Assembly: GCA_003252535.1 (NCBI GenBank)
Contig: QKDN01000030.1
Span: forward strand, 1-33,903
Source: Campylobacterota bacterium
Lineage (GTDB): Bacteria > Campylobacterota > Campylobacteria > Campylobacterales > Sulfurovaceae
Direction of reading: 5' to 3'
Length of the DNA stretch: 33,903 nucleotides
Shown piece after piece: positions 21,739 through 33,262 of the stretch. How positions within the stretch are numbered: position 1 is the stretch's first letter; every line of letters starts with the position of its first letter. The position numbers and the translations under genes are program-made. The notes under the pieces are model-generated. The model was not told the DNA's origin and ran no database searches. It saw only the letters and a program-made list of their open reading frames with translations.

Positions 21739-22556
21739 AAAAAATCTTTCTAGCAGCTGCCCTTTTATCAGTGACACTTGTTTCCGGTGTAGAGCTTGAA
21801 CTCAGCGGTAGCGTCGTTTCGGACAACCAGAAGATGATGACAAGCCGTTATATGGGCTATGTCAAGAGGATGATGGTAAGCGAAGGGGATATCGTCAAAA
21901 CAGGCCAGCTTCTCTATGAGATCGATTCCAAAGAGATTGAGGCAGCCGAAAGACAGGTCGATCTTGCAATTTCCCAGGCAAGACTGGCACTTCAGATGAA
22001 CAGAAGCCAGCTCGACAATGTCAGGCTTAACCTTGCCAGATACAAGAGACTCTTTGAGAAGAAAATGGTCTCGAAGTACGAACTCGAGCAGCTTGAGCTT
22101 GGCGAAAAGAACATGGTCGATATGGTCGAGATAGCACAGGAGCAGGTCAACCAGGCACTGGCAAAAAAGGATGAAGTGCTCAATCAGTACAATTACCTCA
22201 AGATCACGGCTCCGAACGACGGTGTCATCGTAGACAAAAGGCTCAACGAAGGTGAAATGGCGATCCCCGGCATGCCTGCTGTCGTGCTCACCGACCTCAG
22301 CCACCTCAGGGTGACGGCTGAGATCAGTGAAACCGACCTGAAATTCATCGATCTCAAAAAAGAAGTTGCCGTCACGATCCCGTCGCTGGCTTTCGAGACC
22401 ACAGGGAAGATCGTCTCCATCATCCCGAGCTCCAACCCTATGACCCATAAGTTCAAGATCAAAATGGACTTCGATGCAAAGGGCAGACCGGTCTACCCGG
22501 GCATGTATGCCAAAGTAGTCATCAAGTCGGATTGGAAAGAAAATGGAACAAAATAA
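21735..22556 (+). CDS. RND periplasmic adaptor (membrane fusion protein)
   Basis: Links the inner-membrane pump to the TolC-type channel. The 273 aa are short for the family (usually 350-400). It starts with a signal peptide (MKKIFLAAALLSVTLVSG). The first lipoyl half follows (YMGYVKRMMVSEGDIVKTGQLLYEID), then a coiled-coil hairpin (about 70-150), the second lipoyl half (LKITAPNDGVIVDKRLNEGEMAIPGM) and a beta-barrel (ISETDLKFIDLKKEVAVTIPS). The membrane-proximal domain is reduced. It overlaps tolC by 4 bp and the pump gene by 14 bp. A paralogue on the opposite strand at 26732-27535 shares the same architecture and several motifs. Confidence 0.9.
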   Translation: MKKIFLAAALLSVTLVSGVELELSGSVVSDNQKMMTSRYMGYVKRMMVSEGDIVKTGQLLYEIDSKEIEAAERQVDLAISQARLALQMNRSQLDNVRLNLARYKRLFEKKMVSKYELEQLELGEKNMVDMVEIAQEQVNQALAKKDEVLNQYNYLKITAPNDGVIVDKRLNEGEMAIPGMPAVVLTDLSHLRVTAEISETDLKFIDLKKEVAVTIPSLAFETTGKIVSIIPSSNPMTHKFKIKMDFDAKGRPVYPGMYAKVVIKSDWKENGTK

Positions 22557-24207
22557 AGAAACATATCAGATAGTCGATTATGCCGGGCACCTGGCAAAAG
22601 GCTTCATCAACAACCCTCTCACTGCCCTCCTGGGCGCTTTCCTTCTTTTTATCGGCTATATGGCGCTTGCGGTTATGCCCCGTGAAGAAGACCCGCAGAT
22701 CGCTATCAGCGGCGGTGCGGTTATCATCATGATGCCCGGAGCCACCCCCAAAGAGATCGAGAATATCATTATCAACCCACTCGAAAGAAAACTCAGGGAA
22801 GTCAGGGGTATAGAGCATGTCTACGGTATGGCTATGGAAAACTACGGCGTGGTCAATGTCATGTACTACATCGGCGAGAACAGGGAAGATTCGAACCTCA
22901 AGCTCTACGATAAAGTTATGCAGAATATGGATGCGATGCCCAAAGGGGTCATGCAGCCACTGATCAAACCTTTCGATATCGACATCGATATCCCTATCGT
23001 ATCGGTAGCATTTTATCCCAAAGCGGGCAAAGAAGTCAGTGATGTCAAGCTCTTTGAGACAGTCAGGATCCTCCAGCAGAAACTCAACGCAGTCGACAAC
23101 GTCGCCAAAACCACCCTCCAGGGAGCTCACAAGGCACAGTTCAACGTCCAGGTCGACATGGGCAAGCTCTCAGCCTACCATCTCTCGATGGGTCAGCTGA
23201 TGAAAGCTATCCAGTCGGTTGCGGTCGACGTCCCCAATGTCAAAGGGAGAACTGAAAACAAACTCGTGATCTTTGGTGTCGAAAATGCCATAGAGAGCAT
23301 CGATGATGTAGGAAATATCATTGTTGCTCAGTACATGGGTTCACCTATCTATCTCAAAGATGTGGCCAGGGTAACCAACGGTATCGACATCCAGAACTTT
23401 CAGAACGCATCCATCCTGTTCAAGAACGAGCACAATGCGACCCTTAGTGAAAGCCAAAAACAGATCACACTCACTGTCGCCAAACTCGCAGGTACGAACG
23501 CCGTCTTCGTTGCCGAAGATGTCACCGAGATACTCAAAGAGAACGAAGCGATGCTGGACAAAGCCGGGATCGGTTACCTGATCACCAGAAACTACGGACA
23601 CAGGGCGAACGAGGCGGTCAACGAGCTGATGCACCACCTTGTCATCACGATCGTCATCATCGCTGTAATGCTCGTCTTTGCACTCGGATGGAAAGAGTCC
23701 CTTATCGTTACCTTTACGGTCCCTGCGATCCTTGCCGTGACACTCTTCACAGCCTGGATGACGGGACAGACGATGAACAGGATCACCCTCTTCGCAATGC
23801 TCCTCTCGCTGGGGCTTCTGGTGGATGCCGCGATCATCGTTATCGAAAATATCCATAGACACCTCCATGCGCATGATGTCGACAGCAAGAACATGAGAGA
23901 CCTCCTTATCGAGGCTACCGATGAGATCGGTGCACCGACCAATATCGCTACCCTCGCGATCATCCTGACGATGGTACCTATGGCGTTCGTCGGTGGTATG
24001 ATGGGATCGTTCATGCAGCCGATCCCCTACAATGTACCTGTGGCACTTGTCGCTTCACTGTTCGTAGCGTATATCTTTACACCGTATCTGAGCCTGAGAC
24101 TCCTCTCGAAGCCAACGCATCACCACCACCATCACAAAAAACACCATCATGATGATGATGAACACGATCATACGCATGAGAACAATGAAGGCAAAGGGGC
24201 ACACTAA
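22543..24207 (+). CDS. RND efflux permease, N-terminal half, with His-rich C-terminal tail
   Basis: Half of a proton-driven RND pump, 554 aa. TM1 is at about 27-46, then a large periplasmic loop (about 47-360) with REEDPQIAI and MMPGATPKEIENIIINPLE, then TM2-TM6 (about 365-525). TM4 has GLLVDAAIIVIEN: the first Asp of the AcrB DD pair is kept and the second is Ala, as in CusA-type pumps. After TM6 the chain ends with a tail carrying six consecutive His (526-531), more HHH and DDDEHDHTH. This replaces the TM6-TM7 linker of a normal fused pump, so it should be cytoplasmic and could bind metal. Its stop overlaps the next ATG by one base (TAATG), so this is an orderly split, not an obvious frameshift. 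Confidence 0.88.
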   Translation: MEQNKETYQIVDYAGHLAKGFINNPLTALLGAFLLFIGYMALAVMPREEDPQIAISGGAVIIMMPGATPKEIENIIINPLERKLREVRGIEHVYGMAMENYGVVNVMYYIGENREDSNLKLYDKVMQNMDAMPKGVMQPLIKPFDIDIDIPIVSVAFYPKAGKEVSDVKLFETVRILQQKLNAVDNVAKTTLQGAHKAQFNVQVDMGKLSAYHLSMGQLMKAIQSVAVDVPNVKGRTENKLVIFGVENAIESIDDVGNIIVAQYMGSPIYLKDVARVTNGIDIQNFQNASILFKNEHNATLSESQKQITLTVAKLAGTNAVFVAEDVTEILKENEAMLDKAGIGYLITRNYGHRANEAVNELMHHLVITIVIIAVMLVFALGWKESLIVTFTVPAILAVTLFTAWMTGQTMNRITLFAMLLSLGLLVDAAIIVIENIHRHLHAHDVDSKNMRDLLIEATDEIGAPTNIATLAIILTMVPMAFVGGMMGSFMQPIPYNVPVALVASLFVAYIFTPYLSLRLLSKPTHHHHHHKKHHHDDDEHDHTHENNEGKGAH

Positions 24208-25928
24208 TGAAGAAGTTTGAAGATTTTGTCTATCGTATATTGGATGACAAGAAGAAAAAAACGATGGTTATCCTCATCACTGCCGCTGCGTTTTTTCTGA
24301 CCCTGCTGATGTTCCCATCCAAGCTCGTACTTGCGAAGATGCTTCCGGGTAAAAGTGACAATACGTTCTCTATCTATATTGATACCCCAACCGGCAGCTC
24401 CATCGAGCAAACCAGAGAAGTGAGCCAGTGTGTCATCGATATCCTCAAAAAAGAGCCGGAGGTCATGCACCTCGAGCTCTTTGAAGCACAGGGAATCCCA
24501 CTGGACTATGCCGGTCTGGTGAAGGGTGCCGGGATGAAGCGTACAGAAGATGTCGCCGAACTCTCGGTCAACCTTACCGACAAGCACCACAGGTCCGAAC
24601 CATCCTACCTGATGGTACAGCGTCTGCGCCCGGAGGTGAAAAAACGCTGCGAGCCTATTGTGCCGAACAGCGTGATCAAGTTCATAGAGCAGCCTGCCGG
24701 ACCGCCGACACTGGCATCTATCGTCGTGGAGGTACACGGACACAACCTTGATGGTATCCGCAAGATCGCCGTTCAGGCAGCAGATATCCTTGGCCGGACC
24801 GAAGGGCTCGTAGACATCGACGTCATGGCCGACGATATCTACAAAAAGTATGAACTCATCCCCGACAAAGAAAAGATATCAAGAAGCGGACTGAGCGTCG
24901 AACAGGTCAATAATATCCTCTATCTGGCATTCGAAGGGATGATCGTAGCACACAAGAACTCCAAAGATGCCCCGGATCAGATACCTATATTCCTGGTCCT
25001 CGATGATGAGACCAAAAAACTCCACAACCAGGAAGAAGAAACGCTCCAGAGTAAGCTCTCGTCGCTCAACCTTATGAACATGAGCGGTATGATGGTACCG
25101 ATGAGCGAAGTCGTATCTATCAGGGAGACCGACTCAAGCCCGATGATCATGCACAAAGATCTCAGCCGTATGGTCAATGTCATCGCCGAGACCGACATGG
25201 TATCGCAGGTCTATCCGCTTCTTGATGCCAGATCGCAGATGCTCGAGTATTTTTCCAAGGATTTTGAAGTGACCAAGGAGCCTGGTATCACGACCTATAT
25301 GTTCGACCTCCACCTTGTCGACAAGAAAACAGGCGAAAAATACCTCCTTAGATGGGACGGCGAGATGAAGGTCACCCTCGATACCTTCCGTGACCTCGGA
25401 GGTGCCTTCATTGCAGCGCTTGTACTGATATTCCTGCTTCTTGTCATCTATTACAGAAGCTTTGCTCTCAGCGGTATCGTACTGCTCGGTTCGTTCCTAT
25501 CACTTATCGGGGTCATCCTCGGGCACTGGGTTGCGAACCTCTTTACATCGTCGACCTTCTTCCTGACGGCGACCTCACTGATCGGCTTCATCGCCCTGAT
25601 CGGTATCAGCTCGAGAAACTCGCTGCTGCTTATCGACTTTGCGAAGTCTCTCATGGAGTACCACAATATGAAAAAGAAACGTGCGATCGCTGTGGCAGCG
25701 GCGACAAGAGCGAAGCCGATCATGCTCACCGCTGTAGCGATCATCCTTGGTTCAGCTCTCCTTGCCTCCGACCCTGTGTTCGGCGGTCTCGGTGTAGCCC
25801 TGATCTCCGGTACTGTAGCGGCAGTATTCGTATCGCTCCTCTTCATCCCTATACTGATGGACAACGCAGAAGCGATGAACTTCGAGCCTGTTGAAGGGAT
25901 ACACGACTCTATCGCTATTACGAAGTAA
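24207..25928 (+). CDS. RND efflux permease, C-terminal half
   Basis: Complements the preceding gene to make a full RND protomer: TM7 at about 20-43, second periplasmic loop (about 44-405), and TM8-TM12 (about 408-555). GISSRNSLLLIDFAK aligns with the AcrB segment containing K940, with Arg in place of that Lys. The basic N-terminus (RILDDKKKKT) lies directly before TM7. Its own RBS (AAAGGGG) is inside the upstream gene's tail. The two halves total 1127 aa, slightly more than fused pumps, partly because of the His-rich tail. Adaptor and channel are upstream in the same operon. Substrate class is uncertain: the sequence mixes features of drug-type and metal-type pumps. Confidence 0.88.
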   Translation: MKKFEDFVYRILDDKKKKTMVILITAAAFFLTLLMFPSKLVLAKMLPGKSDNTFSIYIDTPTGSSIEQTREVSQCVIDILKKEPEVMHLELFEAQGIPLDYAGLVKGAGMKRTEDVAELSVNLTDKHHRSEPSYLMVQRLRPEVKKRCEPIVPNSVIKFIEQPAGPPTLASIVVEVHGHNLDGIRKIAVQAADILGRTEGLVDIDVMADDIYKKYELIPDKEKISRSGLSVEQVNNILYLAFEGMIVAHKNSKDAPDQIPIFLVLDDETKKLHNQEEETLQSKLSSLNLMNMSGMMVPMSEVVSIRETDSSPMIMHKDLSRMVNVIAETDMVSQVYPLLDARSQMLEYFSKDFEVTKEPGITTYMFDLHLVDKKTGEKYLLRWDGEMKVTLDTFRDLGGAFIAALVLIFLLLVIYYRSFALSGIVLLGSFLSLIGVILGHWVANLFTSSTFFLTATSLIGFIALIGISSRNSLLLIDFAKSLMEYHNMKKKRAIAVAAATRAKPIMLTAVAIILGSALLASDPVFGGLGVALISGTVAAVFVSLLFIPILMDNAEAMNFEPVEGIHDSIAITK

Positions 25929-26714: not shown

Positions 26715-26750
26715 CACTCAGCCCGTAGGGCTTAGTGCTCGTTCGTTTTT
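26715..26750 (+). terminator. efp terminator
   Basis: CACTCAGCCC (26715-26724) pairs with GGGCTTAGTG (26728-26737) with one mismatch around loop GTA, followed by CTCGTTCGTTTTTATG. The right arm covers the stop codon and last codons of the convergent adaptor gene. Confidence 0.7.
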
Positions 26751-27535
26751 ATGTATATCTTGGCGTACATGCCGGGGAATATATTTTTATCCTCTTTATC
26801 AAATGATACTCTGATCACTATCTTGTGCGTCATCGGGTTGGCATCAGGTATGACAGCCTTGATCTTCCCTTCGGTATGATACTCAAGAGACGGGATCACT
26901 ACCCTCACCGTATCCCCTTTGCGGACATGCTTCATAATACTCTCAGAGATCGAAACATCTATCTCAAGACTCTCCGTATCCACCATCATGATCGTAAGCA
27001 TCCCCGGCATCACCATGTCGCCGACCTTGATATTCTTCTGTACGATGACACCGTCAGAGGGGGCTTTCATCTTGAGGTAGTTGTAAACGGTCGCCATCTG
27101 TTTTGCTTTGATGGTGAGCTGTTCCACCGCTACCTGTGAGGCATCGAGCATTGTCTGGGCATTTTCGGCCATCGAGTCGAGGTCTTCGATATCGGAAATC
27201 GGCACAATGTTCTTTTTGTTCTCAAGCTTGTCCTTTCTTCTCTGAAGGATCTCAAGACGCTTCCTCCAGAACTCCAGCACGATCTTGGACTGTTCGAGTG
27301 CAAGGTCGGCCTGGGACTTCATGATATCAAACTCTGCCGACTCCATCTCATAGAGATCATCCTCACGCTTTACCTTGTCTCCTAGTTCCACAAATACCTT
27401 CTTGATATATCCCATATAGCGGCTTCCTATCATCTTCTGTCCGTTCGAGATGACAGTGCCGGTCAATTCTATGTTGTCTGCATAGGATAGAAGAGGTATG
27501 ACACTCAAAAGTGCTACTTTCAGCATTTTTTTCAA
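26732..27535 (-). CDS. Second RND-type periplasmic adaptor, paralogue without its own pump
   Basis: A 267-aa membrane fusion protein with signal peptide (MKKMLKVALLSVIPLLSYA), two lipoyl halves (YMGYIKKVFVELGDKV and LKMKAPSDGVIVQKNIKVGD) joined by a coiled-coil hairpin (about 75-150), and a beta-barrel (SISESIMKHVRKGDTVRVVIPS). It shares long stretches with the adaptor at 21735-22556, such as SRYMGY, PGM, NPMTHK and FPGMYAKI/YPGMYAKV. TTG 27535 is chosen because AAGGAA lies six bases upstream; ATG 27526 would remove three residues. No pump or channel gene is beside it. It follows the cytochrome gene by 37 bp on the same strand, so the two probably form an operon. Confidence 0.87.
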   Translation of the reverse strand: MKKMLKVALLSVIPLLSYADNIELTGTVISNGQKMIGSRYMGYIKKVFVELGDKVKREDDLYEMESAEFDIMKSQADLALEQSKIVLEFWRKRLEILQRRKDKLENKKNIVPISDIEDLDSMAENAQTMLDASQVAVEQLTIKAKQMATVYNYLKMKAPSDGVIVQKNIKVGDMVMPGMLTIMMVDTESLEIDVSISESIMKHVRKGDTVRVVIPSLEYHTEGKIKAVIPDANPMTHKIVIRVSFDKEDKNIFPGMYAKIYIKTNEH

Positions 27536-27572: not shown

Positions 27573-27983
27573 CTACCATTTCCTTAACTGGGTATGACAC
27601 TCCATACACTCTTTGGTAATCTTGGTAAATGCCTGTATAGCCTGTGTGGCATCTCCCTCTTTGAATCTCTCCAGGATATCCTTCGCTTTTCTGTTGATAT
27701 TTTTTTTGATCCTGTTGGTCACCTGTACCTTATTGTTGGTATAGCGTGTCATCACATCTTTCTCTTCCACTTCTTCAAGAGGTGGCTGGATCTTCTCGAT
27801 TGTGTCGGAAAGCTTGTTTACTCCCTCTTTGATGATGTCAAAGTTATTATAGAAAAAGCCGTTCTGAATATCCTGCATAGCGGCTGCCATTGTCTGCATA
27901 TCCTGGATTCTGTCCTTTTGCGTGTATCCCTCACCATATGCCATGCTGCCTGCTATTGCGAGTGCAATGAGTGTTTTTTTCAT
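27573..27983 (-). CDS. Class II (c'-type-like) periplasmic cytochrome c
   Basis: 136 aa: signal peptide (MKKTLIALAIAGSMAYG), then a helix-rich body consistent with a four-helix bundle, and one heme-binding motif CMECH (126-130) close to the C-terminus. Single CxxCH at the C-terminal end of a four-helix protein is the pattern of cytochrome c'/c556. Such proteins carry electrons or bind small gases such as NO in the periplasm; which applies here is not visible. AGGAGT precedes ATG 27983 and a TACAAT -10 lies at 28021-28016 (minus). The next gene on the strand is the orphan adaptor. Confidence 0.82.
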   Translation of the reverse strand: MKKTLIALAIAGSMAYGEGYTQKDRIQDMQTMAAAMQDIQNGFFYNNFDIIKEGVNKLSDTIEKIQPPLEEVEEKDVMTRYTNNKVQVTNRIKKNINRKAKDILERFKEGDATQAIQAFTKITKECMECHTQLRKW

Positions 27984-28015
27984 ACCAACTCCTGTAGTTA
28001 ATTTTTGTGTAACAA

Positions 28016-28122
28016 ATTGTACCAGATAAAAATAAATATATCAAAATAATTGAGCATATTAATTCATATTCATAACTACCGTTTATTTCGTAAGTTTCAT
28101 TTTAGAAAAAGATTGCTATAGT
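28016..28122. promoter_or_regulatory. Divergent promoters between cytochrome and repeat-protein genes
   Basis: Minus strand: TACAAT at 28021-28016 for the cytochrome-adaptor unit. Plus strand: TATAGT at 28117-28122, about 54 bp before the ATG at 28176, which has RBS GGAGGA. The region between is very AT-rich. Confidence 0.4.
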
Positions 28123-28175
28123 TTTTCATGCAGAAATTGCAGAAAATTTGATTATAACAATCTGGAGGATTGACA

Positions 28176-28901
28176 ATGAAAAGAATCGTATTGGCAAGTG
28201 CCCTGGCTATCGCTACCATCACATCGGCTCAAGCTGACTTTAGCTTCGGTGATATGTTCAAGGATATGAAAGATGCTGCCACTTCAATGAGCCATGATGC
28301 TAGAGACAGTGTAACTGCGATGAAAGACGGTGCGGTCGAGACAAGTAAGAGTGCCGAAAGAACCGTGACCAATGTCAGTAAAGATGCAAAAGACTCTGCA
28401 GTAAAAGTATCTGATGACCTCAAGACCAGCGAGATCGCGACTGTCAACAGCTCAGAGCGTTCTATCACCAATGTAAGTAAAGATGCAAGAGACAGCACTA
28501 TCGAGATCGCTGAAGATACAAAAGACTCTATCACCAATACTACAAGGGATATGAAAGACAGCTCTACTATGGCTACAAAAGACTTCAAAGATTCTGCAGT
28601 AGCTATCTCACACGATGTCAACGACGCTACAAAAACAGTTTCTAACGACTCAAGAGACTCTGTCAAAACTGTTTCTAACGACTCAAGAGATTCAGTAAAA
28701 ACTGTATCAAATGACTCAAGAGACTCTGTAAAAACAGTTTCTAACGATTCAAGAGATTCTGTCAAAACTGTATCAAATGACTCAAGAGATTCTGTAAAAA
28801 CAGTTTCTAACGATTCAAGAGACTCTGTCAAAACTGTATCGAACGACTCAAGAGATTCTGTAAAAACAGTTTCTAACGATTCAAGAGAAAACAGTTTCTA
28901 A
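28176..28901 (+). CDS. Exported 11-residue-repeat protein, frame broken in the repeats
   Basis: 241 aa with a signal peptide (MKRIVLASALAIATITSAQA), predicted periplasmic. Most of the mature chain is a tandem of 11-residue units. Early ones are degenerate (SKDAKDSAVKV, SKDARDSTIEI); from about residue 153 there are seven nearly perfect TVSNDSRDSVK units. Charged/polar residues with V at fixed places give amphipathic helices, a pattern like group 3 LEA proteins, apolipoproteins and synuclein; homology is not implied. There is no Cys or enzyme motif. Unit 8 is cut short and reads ENSF then stop. The repeat continues in another frame to 29190, so the gene is frameshifted. ATG 28176 is six bases from RBS GGAGGA; an upstream TTG at 28170 is less likely. 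Confidence 0.8.
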   Translation: MKRIVLASALAIATITSAQADFSFGDMFKDMKDAATSMSHDARDSVTAMKDGAVETSKSAERTVTNVSKDAKDSAVKVSDDLKTSEIATVNSSERSITNVSKDARDSTIEIAEDTKDSITNTTRDMKDSSTMATKDFKDSAVAISHDVNDATKTVSNDSRDSVKTVSNDSRDSVKTVSNDSRDSVKTVSNDSRDSVKTVSNDSRDSVKTVSNDSRDSVKTVSNDSRDSVKTVSNDSRENSF

Positions 28902-28920
28902 CGACACAAGAGACTCTGTC
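28632..28920. repeat. 33-bp tandem repeat array
   Basis: About nine copies of a 33-bp unit containing CAAGAGA, seven of them complete before a shortened one. Units differ by silent changes (gactca/gattca, gtc/gta, tttctaac/tatcaaat), and from the fourth onward they alternate, giving a 66-bp higher-order period. Unit 8 lacks 8 bp relative to its neighbours, which causes the frameshift. Such arrays are prone to slippage and recombination. Confidence 0.9.
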
Positions 28921-29190
28921 AAAACAGTATCGAATGACCTTGATGACGCTACAAAAACTGTATCGAACGATACTGCTGATGCCGTCAAAACAGTATCAAA
29001 TGACCTTGACGAGTCTACTAGAACGATCTCTGACAACGCCAACGATTCTACAAAAACAATCTCTAACGATTCAAGAGACTCTGTCAAATCAGTTTCTGAC
29101 AATGTGAACGACTCTACAAAAACCGTTTCAAGCAACGCTAACGATTCTACCAAATCAATCTCTAACGATATCAAGAATGACAAACACTAA
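28888..29190 (+). pseudogene. C-terminal continuation of the 11-mer repeat protein, out of frame
   Basis: Reading from 28888 in the frame one base ahead gives K-TVSNDTRDSVK-TVSNDLDDATK-TVSN and so on to the end IKNDKH and TAA 29188-29190, about 100 residues. The 11-residue periodicity carries on without a break, but sequence divergence increases towards the end. There is no start codon or RBS, so it is not an independent gene. Restoring 8 bp near 28889 would fuse it to the upstream frame and give a protein of about 340 aa. Confidence 0.75.
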
Positions 29191-29210
29191 TTGATACTTT
29201 CGAGTATTTA

Positions 29211-29240
29211 CGGAGCCTCCGGCTCCGGGTTAGCCTTTTC
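29211..29240 (+). terminator. Terminator after the repeat-protein gene
   Basis: Perfect 7-bp GC-rich stem CGGAGCC/GGCTCCG with loop TCC (29211-29227), followed by GGTTAGCCTTTTCG. Confidence 0.6.
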
Positions 29241-29315
29241 GTTTTCCTGTACCCTGTTTGCAAGAAAATGAAAATGTTACATCAACTCAAATGTATCATG
29301 AACTAAGGAGAATGA

Positions 29316-31379
29316 ATGAAGTTTAAATCAAACGTATTGATATCGGCACTGGGGATAGCTGCCTCACTGATGATATCTACAACCACGCTCTTTGCAGCCG
29401 CACCTGCGTCTGAACTTGCCGACTTGTACATCGTGAACGGTGATGGAGTTGAAGCAAAATACAACAAGTTTCTCGAAGAGAAGATCAAGAGCATAGGTTT
29501 CGTACTGACCGACCCACACAAAAGAGTGAATGACGGGTACGCCAAGAAATACGGCTCGACAAAACTCGATCTGCTTAGCTTTATGTCGGTATCCAACAAG
29601 GAATCCATGTCACCGCTGCTGGAGATAGAACCCAAACTGGCAGGTTTCAACCCATTCAATATGCTCATCTACAAAGCGCTCGATGAAAAAGAAGCCCATG
29701 TCGGCCATATCAGACCGGAAGCGGTCCTCGATATACTCGATATCAAGGATGAAAAAGTCAGAAGCGGCTACATCAAAGCGATCGAACCCCTTGATAAGAT
29801 GCTCAAAGAGGAGTTCGGAGGAGAGGTCAAAACGCTCAAGCTCGATGCCTATTCCGACACAAGGATGATGGAGTTCGAGGTACCGTTCGAAAGAGGCGAT
29901 GATCTTGACGAGTTCATCGATGACTTCCAGGAGAGATTCGAAGCGGCTTTTGAAGAGAAGAAATATATTATCGCAGGATTCTTCAACTTCAAAGAGTCAT
30001 TTGATGGTGTAGACAGACTCCCTTCGTATGATGCCTTCTGGGTCTATTCACTTTGTCACTTCAAATTCTCATACAGTGTATTCGACGGCGAAGGGAAAAG
30101 ACCTGAATCAGGACTTTTCGCCCCATGCTCGATGTATATGTACATCAAAAAAGACGACAACAAGCTCATGGTCGGAATGCCCAGACTTGATAACTGGGCC
30201 AAGGCGATATCGATCAAGGATCCCAAAAGACTCGAGCTCATAGCGCAGCTTGACAAAGAGATACCGGAGATCATGGTCAGCCTTGGTGCGAAAGTCCTCA
30301 ACGGCAGCAGTAAAAATGCAGCATCTACGAAAGCTCCCGAAAGTACACCGGCAGCAGAGGAGACAAAACCTGCCGCAGAAGAACCTAAAAACGAGGGTGA
30401 ACCTGCCGCAGCAGAGCCCAACGATGGCGACGTGATCATCGAGATGCCAAAGGTACCGGCACCGGTCAAACCGGTCAAGGTATCGGTCATCGGTGGCAAT
30501 CCTCCCGTAGAGGAGAACCACAGCCACTACAAACCAAGAGCGATCGTCAACAAACCAAGCCAACCTCCAGTCTCTGCGTCAAACAGCACATCAGCAGCCA
30601 ATGACAAGGATGCAAAAGCAGGTGATGTGGTCAGCAGCCGTGTTTCATCATACCTTCGCGGCAAGCTTCAGAGTATTGAAGAGATCAAAAAAGCCCTGGA
30701 AGGCGCCGGATTCACTATCCTGGCGACAAATGCACTCGATAAGGACGGTGAACTCGTCTCGATCGTCTTCAGCGATGCGGTTTTGACCAAAATGGCTGAC
30801 AAAACGAACAGAGGCTTTGCAGGTTCATTGAGAGTATTGGTAAATAAGAAGGATAATGAGATCGCATTTATCAATCCTCTCTATATGGCACGTGCCTTCA
30901 TGCAGGATGAGTTCGATCAGAAAACGGTCGCTCCCGTTCTCGAAAAGCTCCGAAACGCTTTCCCAGGCCTCAGCAATTCCGATGATATGCTCAAGTTCAA
31001 CCTCCTGCCGAAATACCGCTTTATGTCCGGGATGCCTTTCTACGAAGATATGATCGTGGTGGGCAAAGGGAAGAACGAAGAGCTCCTTGCCAAGGTGAGC
31101 AAAAGCGCTGACGTGGTCTTCACCCAGACACTCTCAGCAGACAGGACTCTAATAGGGATCAACCTTTCCAAAAGGACAGCGAAGTTCATCAAGAAAATAG
31201 GAGTCAGGAACGCCGCCCTCCTCCCCTACCCCATTATCATAGAGAATGGGGAAGCCAAGATACTCGATCCAAAGTACTACATTGCACTTATGTATCCTGA
31301 TCTCAAAATGTCCCAGTTCATGACCATTTCGACAGTACCCGGTGCCATCCAGGTAGACTGCGAAAGTATATTCAGATAA
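29316..31379 (+). CDS. Large exported protein with DUF302-like modules, paralogue 1
   Basis: 687 aa with a signal peptide ending near LFAA, predicted periplasmic. The N-terminal region (about 40-150) contains KKYGSTKLDLLSFMSV. The second region (about 185-330) contains YSLCHFKFSYSVFD and GLFAPCSMYMY; GLFxPC is reminiscent of the conserved cysteine segment of DUF302. A low-complexity A/E/P/K linker follows (about 335-450). A further region (about 455-560) contains GFAGSLRVLV and a C-terminal region ALLPYPIIIENGEAKILDPKYYIAL. AAGGAG precedes the ATG. The next gene encodes a clear paralogue. Function is unknown; there is no CxxCH heme motif and no membrane segment after the signal. The module assignment is by eye. 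Confidence 0.82.
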   Translation: MKFKSNVLISALGIAASLMISTTTLFAAAPASELADLYIVNGDGVEAKYNKFLEEKIKSIGFVLTDPHKRVNDGYAKKYGSTKLDLLSFMSVSNKESMSPLLEIEPKLAGFNPFNMLIYKALDEKEAHVGHIRPEAVLDILDIKDEKVRSGYIKAIEPLDKMLKEEFGGEVKTLKLDAYSDTRMMEFEVPFERGDDLDEFIDDFQERFEAAFEEKKYIIAGFFNFKESFDGVDRLPSYDAFWVYSLCHFKFSYSVFDGEGKRPESGLFAPCSMYMYIKKDDNKLMVGMPRLDNWAKAISIKDPKRLELIAQLDKEIPEIMVSLGAKVLNGSSKNAASTKAPESTPAAEETKPAAEEPKNEGEPAAAEPNDGDVIIEMPKVPAPVKPVKVSVIGGNPPVEENHSHYKPRAIVNKPSQPPVSASNSTSAANDKDAKAGDVVSSRVSSYLRGKLQSIEEIKKALEGAGFTILATNALDKDGELVSIVFSDAVLTKMADKTNRGFAGSLRVLVNKKDNEIAFINPLYMARAFMQDEFDQKTVAPVLEKLRNAFPGLSNSDDMLKFNLLPKYRFMSGMPFYEDMIVVGKGKNEELLAKVSKSADVVFTQTLSADRTLIGINLSKRTAKFIKKIGVRNAALLPYPIIIENGEAKILDPKYYIALMYPDLKMSQFMTISTVPGAIQVDCESIFR

Positions 31380-31408: not shown

Positions 31409-33262
31409 ATGCTAAAAAGATTTGTCACTGCTCTCTGTGCGATATCAGTCGCTGCAACACTCGGCCTCGCAGAAGCAAAACACGGTATCGTCGTCTACAC
31501 ACACGAGGGTGATATAGAAAAACAGTACAACGAGCTGGTCGAGAAGAAGGTCACTGCGCTGGGCTTCAAAGTCGCCGATCCGCACAAGAGAATCAACGAT
31601 GTCTACAAGAAGAAGTACGGTTCGACCAAACTCGACCTCCTTACTTTCATGACAGTGGTCAATGATGAGAAGATCAAGCCGCTCCTCGCTATAGACCCGA
31701 GACTTGCAGGGTTCAACCCTTTCGATCTCTTCGCATATAAAAAGACCGGTGAGAACACGACTCAGGTCTCCCACCTCACTGCCGATGCGATCCTCGATAT
31801 GCTCCATATCGAAGATGCCAAGGTCAGAGAAGAGTATACTGCTATGCTCAAGCCGCTTGACGAGATGGTGGCGAAAGACCTCGGCGGTAAGGTCAGCTAT
31901 ATCGATTACGACAAAGTGATCGACAAAACGACAATGAACTTCGAATACGAGTTCGAAAGAGCTGAAGACCTTGACGAGTTCATCGATGATTTCCAGGGGA
32001 GATTCGAAGAGGCGTTCGAAGCGAAGAAATACATCATCGCAGGGTTCTTCAACTTCTACGAGCACTTCGGTGACGGACCAAACCCACTTGCCGGGAAGTT
32101 CGATGCGTTCTGGACCTATTCACTCTGCCACTTTACATTCTCGTACAATATCTTCGATAACGAGGGTATGAAACCTGAAGCCGGTGTCTTTGCTCCATGT
32201 ACGATGTATATGTATATCGAAAAGGGCTCGAACAAGCTTGTCATCGGTATGCCGCGTCTTGCCAACTGGGCTCACATGGTCGGTATCACCGATCAGAAAA
32301 GAATTGATTTCATCAAGCAGCTTGATACAGAGATCCCTCAGATCCTCGTAAGCATGGGGGCGAAAGAGGTCGAAAGTACTCCGTTCCCGATGATGGCAGA
32401 GGGTACGGCAGCGACGACAACCGCAGCAAAAACCGAGACCAAAGCAGCAGAAAAAACAGAAGAAGCAAAAAAAGTCATCGAAGCACGCAAGGTCAGCAAG
32501 CCTTCGAATGTCGGCTTCAAAGTAGGTGACAAGATCAGTGCATTCCTCGTAGGACCGTATGCAGTTCCCGAGCAGATCATCGCCGATCTCGGTGCCAACG
32601 GTTTCGAAGTGCTCGCTACGCACAAGGTAGGCGATCTCAGTTCGATCGTCTTCACTTCATCCGATCTCAAGAAGATGGCAAGCAGAAAGAACAGAGGTTT
32701 TGCAGCAGTCCTCAGAGTACTTGTGGATGAGAAAGCCGGCAAGATCACCATCACCAACCCGCTCTATTTCGGTAAAGCCTATATGCAGGCGGACTTCAGG
32801 GCAGTCGCTACAAGAGAACTCCTTGAAAAGCTCAACAAGAGCTTCGAGGGTCTCAAGAACTCTGAAGACGTACTCGAAGAGGATGACCTCGCCGACTACC
32901 AGTTCATGATGGGTATGCCGAAATATGACGATATGGATATCATTGCCGAAGGTGACAATGCAGAGCTTCTGGCCAAGATCAAAAAGAGCGGCAAGATGCT
33001 CTTCGAACTCAAGCTCAGCGATGACGCGACACTCGTCGGTGTAGAGCTTGGCAAGAGAACTTCAAAGTTCCCTGCCAAGATCGGCGAGGGCAACGCGATG
33101 GTACTCCCGTATACGGTACTCATCGAAAAAGGCCAGGCGAAATCACTTGCACCCAAGTACAATATCGCCCTCTACTACCCTATGCTGACCATGAGCACAT
33201 TCATGACCATCGCCACGATCCCCGGAGCGATCGTCAGCGATCTCGAACACGCGTTCAAATAA
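31409..33262 (+). CDS. Large exported protein with DUF302-like modules, paralogue 2
   Basis: 617 aa with signal peptide MLKRFVTALCAISVAATLGLAEA. Collinear with the preceding protein over its whole length: DPHKRINDVYKKKYGSTKLDLL, YSLCHFTFSYNIFD, GVFAPCTMYMY, RGFAAVLRVLVDEKAGKITITNPLY and FMTIATIPGAI all have counterparts. It lacks most of the proline/alanine linker (here a shorter A/T/E/K stretch, about 330-370). The conserved pair YSLCHF and FAPC keeps two cysteines in both proteins. RBS AAGGAG is 29 bp after the first gene's stop, and a good terminator follows, so the two form an operon. The duplication with an intact second copy suggests the two proteins act together or on different partners. 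Confidence 0.83.
   Translation: MLKRFVTALCAISVAATLGLAEAKHGIVVYTHEGDIEKQYNELVEKKVTALGFKVADPHKRINDVYKKKYGSTKLDLLTFMTVVNDEKIKPLLAIDPRLAGFNPFDLFAYKKTGENTTQVSHLTADAILDMLHIEDAKVREEYTAMLKPLDEMVAKDLGGKVSYIDYDKVIDKTTMNFEYEFERAEDLDEFIDDFQGRFEEAFEAKKYIIAGFFNFYEHFGDGPNPLAGKFDAFWTYSLCHFTFSYNIFDNEGMKPEAGVFAPCTMYMYIEKGSNKLVIGMPRLANWAHMVGITDQKRIDFIKQLDTEIPQILVSMGAKEVESTPFPMMAEGTAATTTAAKTETKAAEKTEEAKKVIEARKVSKPSNVGFKVGDKISAFLVGPYAVPEQIIADLGANGFEVLATHKVGDLSSIVFTSSDLKKMASRKNRGFAAVLRVLVDEKAGKITITNPLYFGKAYMQADFRAVATRELLEKLNKSFEGLKNSEDVLEEDDLADYQFMMGMPKYDDMDIIAEGDNAELLAKIKKSGKMLFELKLSDDATLVGVELGKRTSKFPAKIGEGNAMVLPYTVLIEKGQAKSLAPKYNIALYYPMLTMSTFMTIATIPGAIVSDLEHAFK

Follow-up and report, generated by a model that had tools for sequence, protein, structure and literature searches.

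An exported 11-residue-repeat helix family of Sulfurovum- and Sulfurimonas-type bacteria, with an 8-bp break in one of its repeat arrays

A gene for an exported protein built of 11-residue units, broken by the loss of 8 bp inside its 33-bp repeat array, raises the question of whether the break is a switch, a mutation or an error of assembly, and of what the unbroken protein does. The gene lies in a 33,903-nucleotide stretch of DNA from a Campylobacterota bacterium of the Sulfurovaceae, referred to here as the window, which makes up the entire contig C41 of a draft genome of 2.92 Mb in 77 contigs. No second copy of the gene was found in the 77 contigs.

The repeat gene opens with a 241-aa ORF on the forward strand (28176–28901), preceded by a GGAGG ribosome-binding site recognized in the sequence (28164–28168, forward strand). 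The product starts with MKRIVLASALAIATITSAQA|DFSF..., in which the first 20 codons (28176–28235) read as a Sec-type signal peptide ending in AQA|D; alanine 20 is conserved in alignments of the whole 11-mer protein family. The conserved N-terminal part of the mature chain (28236–28631, defined from alignments) consists of the FSFGDMFKDMKD motif and of degenerate 11-mers that make up mature residues 21–152 and the first ~12 units of the array. These are followed by seven perfect KTVSNDSRDSV units of 33 bp each (28632–28862). The signal peptide and 11-residue chain that had been read from the DNA are thus borne out, with the degenerate 11-mers upstream belonging to the same chain. Opposite the array, the reverse strand carries an open frame of 200 codons (28229–28831), probably as a by-product of the codon composition of the repeats. 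Just past the original stop of the gene, folding places a GC-rich hairpin (29211–29227, forward strand; z −2.1) that could mark the end of the transcript; no T-run directly follows its stem, and a terminator scan found no intrinsic terminator 3′ of 29190 despite the stable hairpin there.

The units were originally said to differ at silent sites only, and the comparison upholds this. Eight columns vary among the seven perfect units, and every one is a third codon position. All of the at least nine changes between the units are silent (p ~3e-6 if changes were random), the changes being not fully independent because two unit types alternate with a 66-bp period within the array. Between the N-terminal part and same-genus relatives, dN is 0.02–0.03 and dS is at or near saturation, and family alignments show strong conservation over the N-terminal 150 residues. 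As judged from these substitution patterns, the 11-mer protein family is under strong purifying selection.

Of 175 genomes in the source organism's taxonomic family, 98 carry the repeat gene; among 397 genomes sampled evenly across the phylum it turned up in 20, all within that family or a few further families of its order. Its named carriers are Sulfurovum, Sulfurimonas and related MAGs. The window gene shares the features of the family, namely an FSFGDMF.DMK N-terminus after the signal peptide, the 11-mers and a divergent cytochrome c′-like neighbour, and on these sequence features it is a member of a family conserved among Sulfurovum/Sulfurimonas-type bacteria. Among the 85 complete ORFs recovered from the 87 loci scanned (L057–L143), 83 are long open frames with a mature length of 161–478 residues. 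The two short ones are L129, which carries an independent break in a Sulfurimonas MAG and loses its frame after 144 aa, and L143, where an additional copy within a tandem cluster has decayed. In five single-contig or near-complete genomes the frames are intact (257–383 aa), and no relative's array is frame-shifted across intact sequence. L059 was considered as a second frameshift and rejected: its halves differ in frame across an N-run, and it was not counted because the gap length of an N-run is arbitrary.

Relatives whose N and C ends are similar were compared in pairs, and of 118 differences in length 111 equal a whole number of 11-residue units; the pairs are not independent, but the pattern is clear. 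These comparisons show that the array evolves in length almost solely by whole 33-bp units, which preserves both the frame and the helical phase. In some genomes the 11-mer gene is present as two to five copies in tandem, some of them decayed (L143 in G117, L127 in G016, L082 in G033, and L135). A second C-terminal type, Y.EYLKLKAKY..KKL, replaces the K/D-rich tail at L072, L105, L115 and other loci, mostly in Sulfurimonas-type genomes.

Computed over the whole mature chain, the hydrophobic moment is highest at 98–98.5 degrees, equivalent to three turns per 11 residues, where it reaches 0.30–0.41, compared with maxima of 0.12–0.27 in shuffled sequences. The hydrophobic stripe keeps a single phase over 220–480 residues, and along 220–380 residues this phase is held within about 50 degrees. 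The stripe itself is narrow and weakly hydrophobic (V/I/M/A), and the remainder of the helix surface is polar (S/T/N/D/K/R), giving a hydrophobic content of 21–26% and a net charge of −6 to −26. The mature chain contains neither proline nor cysteine, and its few aromatic residues lie mainly in the FSFGDMF motif. The periodicity shows that a single unbroken 3-11 (11/3) amphipathic helix could accommodate the whole chain after the signal peptide. AlphaFold2 predicts only long helices and no strand, with a mean pLDDT of 52 and values above 70 only at residues ~270–385 of the family member L060.

The gene neighbourhood is conserved as well. A divergent gene (27573–27983, reverse strand) encodes a small exported, cytochrome c′-like protein with a C-terminal CMECH haem motif (Cytochrom_C_2, E 1e-4, 23.4 bits, below the cut-off of 26.5). 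The divergent cytochrome c′-like gene lies upstream of the repeat gene in 69 of 71 loci, at a median distance of 212 bp, and a hand count found the repeat gene in all 77 family genomes with a close cytochrome orthologue (E <1e-35). Beyond it, an HlyD/CusB-like periplasmic adaptor (26732–27535, reverse strand in the window) recurs in 62 of 65 loci. Downstream lies a gene for an exported protein with a weak DUF302 match (29316–31379, forward strand; 20.8 bits, cut-off 23), which is a conserved neighbour in Sulfurovum-type genomes, DUF302-like exported proteins being found at this position in 35 of 48 loci; it is followed by a paralogue with no Pfam match (31409–33262, forward strand). TolC-, HlyD- and split RND-type genes are also located near the repeat gene in the window. 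The RND pump is split into two ORFs (22543–24207 and 24207–25928) corresponding to the two halves of ACR_tran, an arrangement also seen in relatives, and the first of the two ORFs has a His-rich tail at its end. The neighbourhood of a haem protein, an adaptor and TolC/HlyD/RND genes suggests that the repeat protein acts in the envelope, in connection with redox or export.

We favour, with a probability of roughly 0.6, a reading in which the gene encodes an exported, rod-like 11-mer helix that coats a hydrophobic surface and in which the 8-bp loss is not a switch but an assembly misjoin or a recent deletion. By analogy with perilipin-4 and the apolipoproteins, the helix would lie flat on lipid or on some other hydrophobic surface, either periplasmic or extracellular; many weak contacts would hold it there, so that its length would set its affinity. 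The analogy suggests that the protein may coat a surface in the cell envelope.

The main structural rival is a hendecad coiled coil, that is, a right-handed rod or filament serving as a spacer, an envelope tether or a surface fibre and not bound flat to a surface. Repeats of the hendecad type suit a right-handed coiled coil no less than a surface-bound helix: the hydrophobic positions are spaced 3-4-4, V or I occupies two of the three core positions, the predicted helix is mostly continuous and the gene neighbours encode envelope proteins. The low AlphaFold confidence counts against the surface-bound helix. Yet the third core position is mostly S, T or M, which at the hydrophobic content given above leaves a thin core, and the closest profile matches are to lipid-binding apolipoproteins, so that we regard the coiled coil as possible and the less likely of the two structures. 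Far less probable is a desiccation or stress protectant of the group 3 LEA type, a resemblance that the original prediction had drawn together with apolipoproteins and synuclein. The chain does share hydrophilic 11-residue repeats and a lack of Cys and Pro with such proteins, but LEA family models matched none of the 32 members scanned (Pfam, E up to 0.01), genes for a haem protein and an efflux-type adaptor are its conserved neighbours, and the hosts are mostly Sulfurovum-/Sulfurimonas-type sulfur oxidisers of wet habitats. The LEA part of that comparison is not supported, whereas its apolipoprotein and synuclein part stands on the hydrophobic moment, the phase and the profile matches.

How, then, did a putative coating helix under purifying selection come to be broken in this assembly? 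Unit 8 is only 25 bp long (28863–28887), with 8 bp missing at 28887/28888; the position of the break is ambiguous by one base, and the loss may have been of 8+33n bp. The original frame consequently runs into a premature TAA (28899–28901). The remainder of the gene (28888–29190) continues in the +1 frame with 100 codons of 11-mers (28888–29187) and a stop at 29188–29190, exactly the short unit and the new frame of about 100 codons that had first been described. An open +1 frame of 100 codons has a 0.17% chance under base shuffling. The helical phase of the post-break part equals that at the end of the pre-break part, and similarity to relatives is kept there with dN/dS ~0.1 and no second lesion, unit homology in this part being uncertain. 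Because no further lesion has accumulated at this dN/dS, the break, if real, would be recent.

The two explanations offered originally as alternatives, a fresh mutation and an assembly error, are those that the data support best. Draft assemblies often fail at the array, since 11 of 80 relatives' assemblies break inside the gene: in nine the contig ends there and in a further two there are N-runs. Against an assembly error, collapse by a k-mer assembler normally removes whole units; a loss of 8 bp is unusual for it, and a gap-closing misjoin would have to be assumed. The deletion edges fall at or adjoin two variable sites of the array, columns 26 and 32, as expected for branch points of an assembly graph, which is suggestive only because 8 of the 33 columns vary anyway. 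A further point against an assembly error is that no frame is broken in the other genes near the array in the source contig, which makes its base-level accuracy look good. We lean towards a misjoin in a hard-to-assemble array, and give a recent deletion in the source strain a chance somewhat below even; that the break has any functional role appears very improbable.

A separate oddity concerns L137 (G012:C1:1250000-1254000), where a near-perfect inverted duplication (99.1% over 3818 bp) is centred within the repeat gene, with ~42 differing central bp and with the repeat gene and its cytochrome neighbour on both strands. It does not extend 6–12 kb away, and the mirror image is either a hairpin assembly artefact or a true palindrome.

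If the break is real, the 241-aa product would keep the signal peptide, the conserved N-terminus and ~20 helical 11-mers. Lengths of this order occur naturally in the family, and the protein may still be functional. The 25-bp unit could be deleted, and the frame regained, by recombination between the units flanking the break; for the reverse change, from intact to broken, such recombination would offer no route.

The locus had also been proposed to be phase-variable, with slippage of the array toggling the length of the exported protein between short and long. The array is indeed repetitive, it differs in length between species over the mature range given above and both frames are open with repeat sequence. 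Slippage is nevertheless frame-neutral because 33 bp is a multiple of three, and the deletion is not a product of slippage because the microhomology at its edges amounts to only ~1 bp. The relatives' lengths differ by multiples of 11 aa and their arrays stay in frame, and 27901–29300 contains no homopolymer tract of the phase-variable type, only a T7 at 27974. A change of repeat number that alters the reading frame or expression, by which phase-variable loci are defined, was not seen among these arrays. A phase-variable switch is thus not supported, and it ranks marginally below even the LEA-type protectant. Programmed ribosomal frameshifting at the junction, which would join the two repeat-encoding open frames, is hardly credible, since the repeats resume in the +1 frame, in which tRNA-Phe would re-pair only poorly at the stop context AGT TTC TAA, there is no fitting X_XXY_YYZ heptamer and intact relatives require no shift.

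The break itself is ordinary, and a warning that draft assemblies fail at this array. The helix deserves more attention as a conserved exported 11-mer family of bacteria from sulfidic habitats, linked there to a haem protein and an efflux-type adaptor and without a curated name in the libraries searched. A search of the Sulfurovum/Sulfurimonas literature at title and abstract level returned nothing on the repeat gene, and the hendecad literature yielded no bacterial exported parallel. If the surface-coating role is true, giant weak amphipathic helices also serve in bacterial envelopes, and the family offers a natural length series, from 161 to 478 residues, relating repeat number to binding.

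Comparison with known systems was based on a Pfam scan of 32 family members, which matched 17 Pfam families at E up to 0.01; curated Pfam/NCBIfam cut-offs were reached in none of the members checked. Apolipoprotein (PF01442) matches 30 of the 32 members and apolipophorin-III (PF07464) 22 of them. L060 scores 28.8 bits against PF01442 (cut-off 90) and 33.0 against PF07464 (cut-off 36.3), the two window parts score 20.1 and 19.9 bits against PF01442, likewise below 90, and the best family member reaches E 8.2e-17, or ~63 bits by extrapolation, against the same cut-off. YtxH-like (PF12732) gave weak matches in 22 of 32 members, with 16.9 and 10.7 bits for the two window fragments (cut-off 37.5); YtxH proteins are short and membrane-anchored. 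Synuclein (PF01387), which shares the 11-mer repeat helix, weakly matches a single member (E 1.6e-5), and the repeat protein differs from it in being exported. Solved structures gave no meaningful match by sequence (best E 0.53), PHROGs gave weak matches only, including long tail proteins, and weak NCBIfam matches to helical or periodic proteins were discarded as below cut-off.

Like apolipoproteins A1, A4 and E, the repeat protein has an 11/22-residue amphipathic periodicity with its phase kept; unlike apolipoproteins and ApoLp-III, it has no prolines at all. The likeness is probably one of periodic composition and not of descent. In perilipin-4, 11-mers that are nearly identical build a 3-11 helix of great length without a break, which is weakly hydrophobic and binds by length (PMC5889406). 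The repeat protein resembles it in its abundance of small beta-branched residues, the near absence of aromatics and the lack of out-of-step indels (PMC5889406), and its moment of 0.35–0.42 compares with 0.257 for Plin4 and 0.35 for Plin3 (PMC5889406). In contrast to perilipin-4, it is bacterial and exported, bears the FSFGDMF N-terminal motif, is negatively charged where Plin4 is net positive, and has a hydrophobic content of 0.21–0.26 against 0.35. The perilipin PAT domain and C-terminal 4-helix bundle are absent from it, as no perilipin model matched in the scans of the window and of the 32 members and the predicted structure consists of long helices only. A more specific picture, which we advance tentatively and consider unlikely in full, is a bacterial exported counterpart of perilipin-4, in which giant 3-11 helices would coat a hydrophobic phase outside the inner membrane of sulfur-oxidising Campylobacterota, such as membrane vesicles or elemental sulfur, together with the cytochrome c′-like protein and HlyD/RND export, the count of 33-bp units tuning how strongly they bind. 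On the features compared, the helix most resembles the coats of eukaryotic lipid droplets and lipoproteins, perilipin-4 is the closest described analogue in manner of working, and the conserved family adds a bacterial representative to the 11-mer amphipathic helices.
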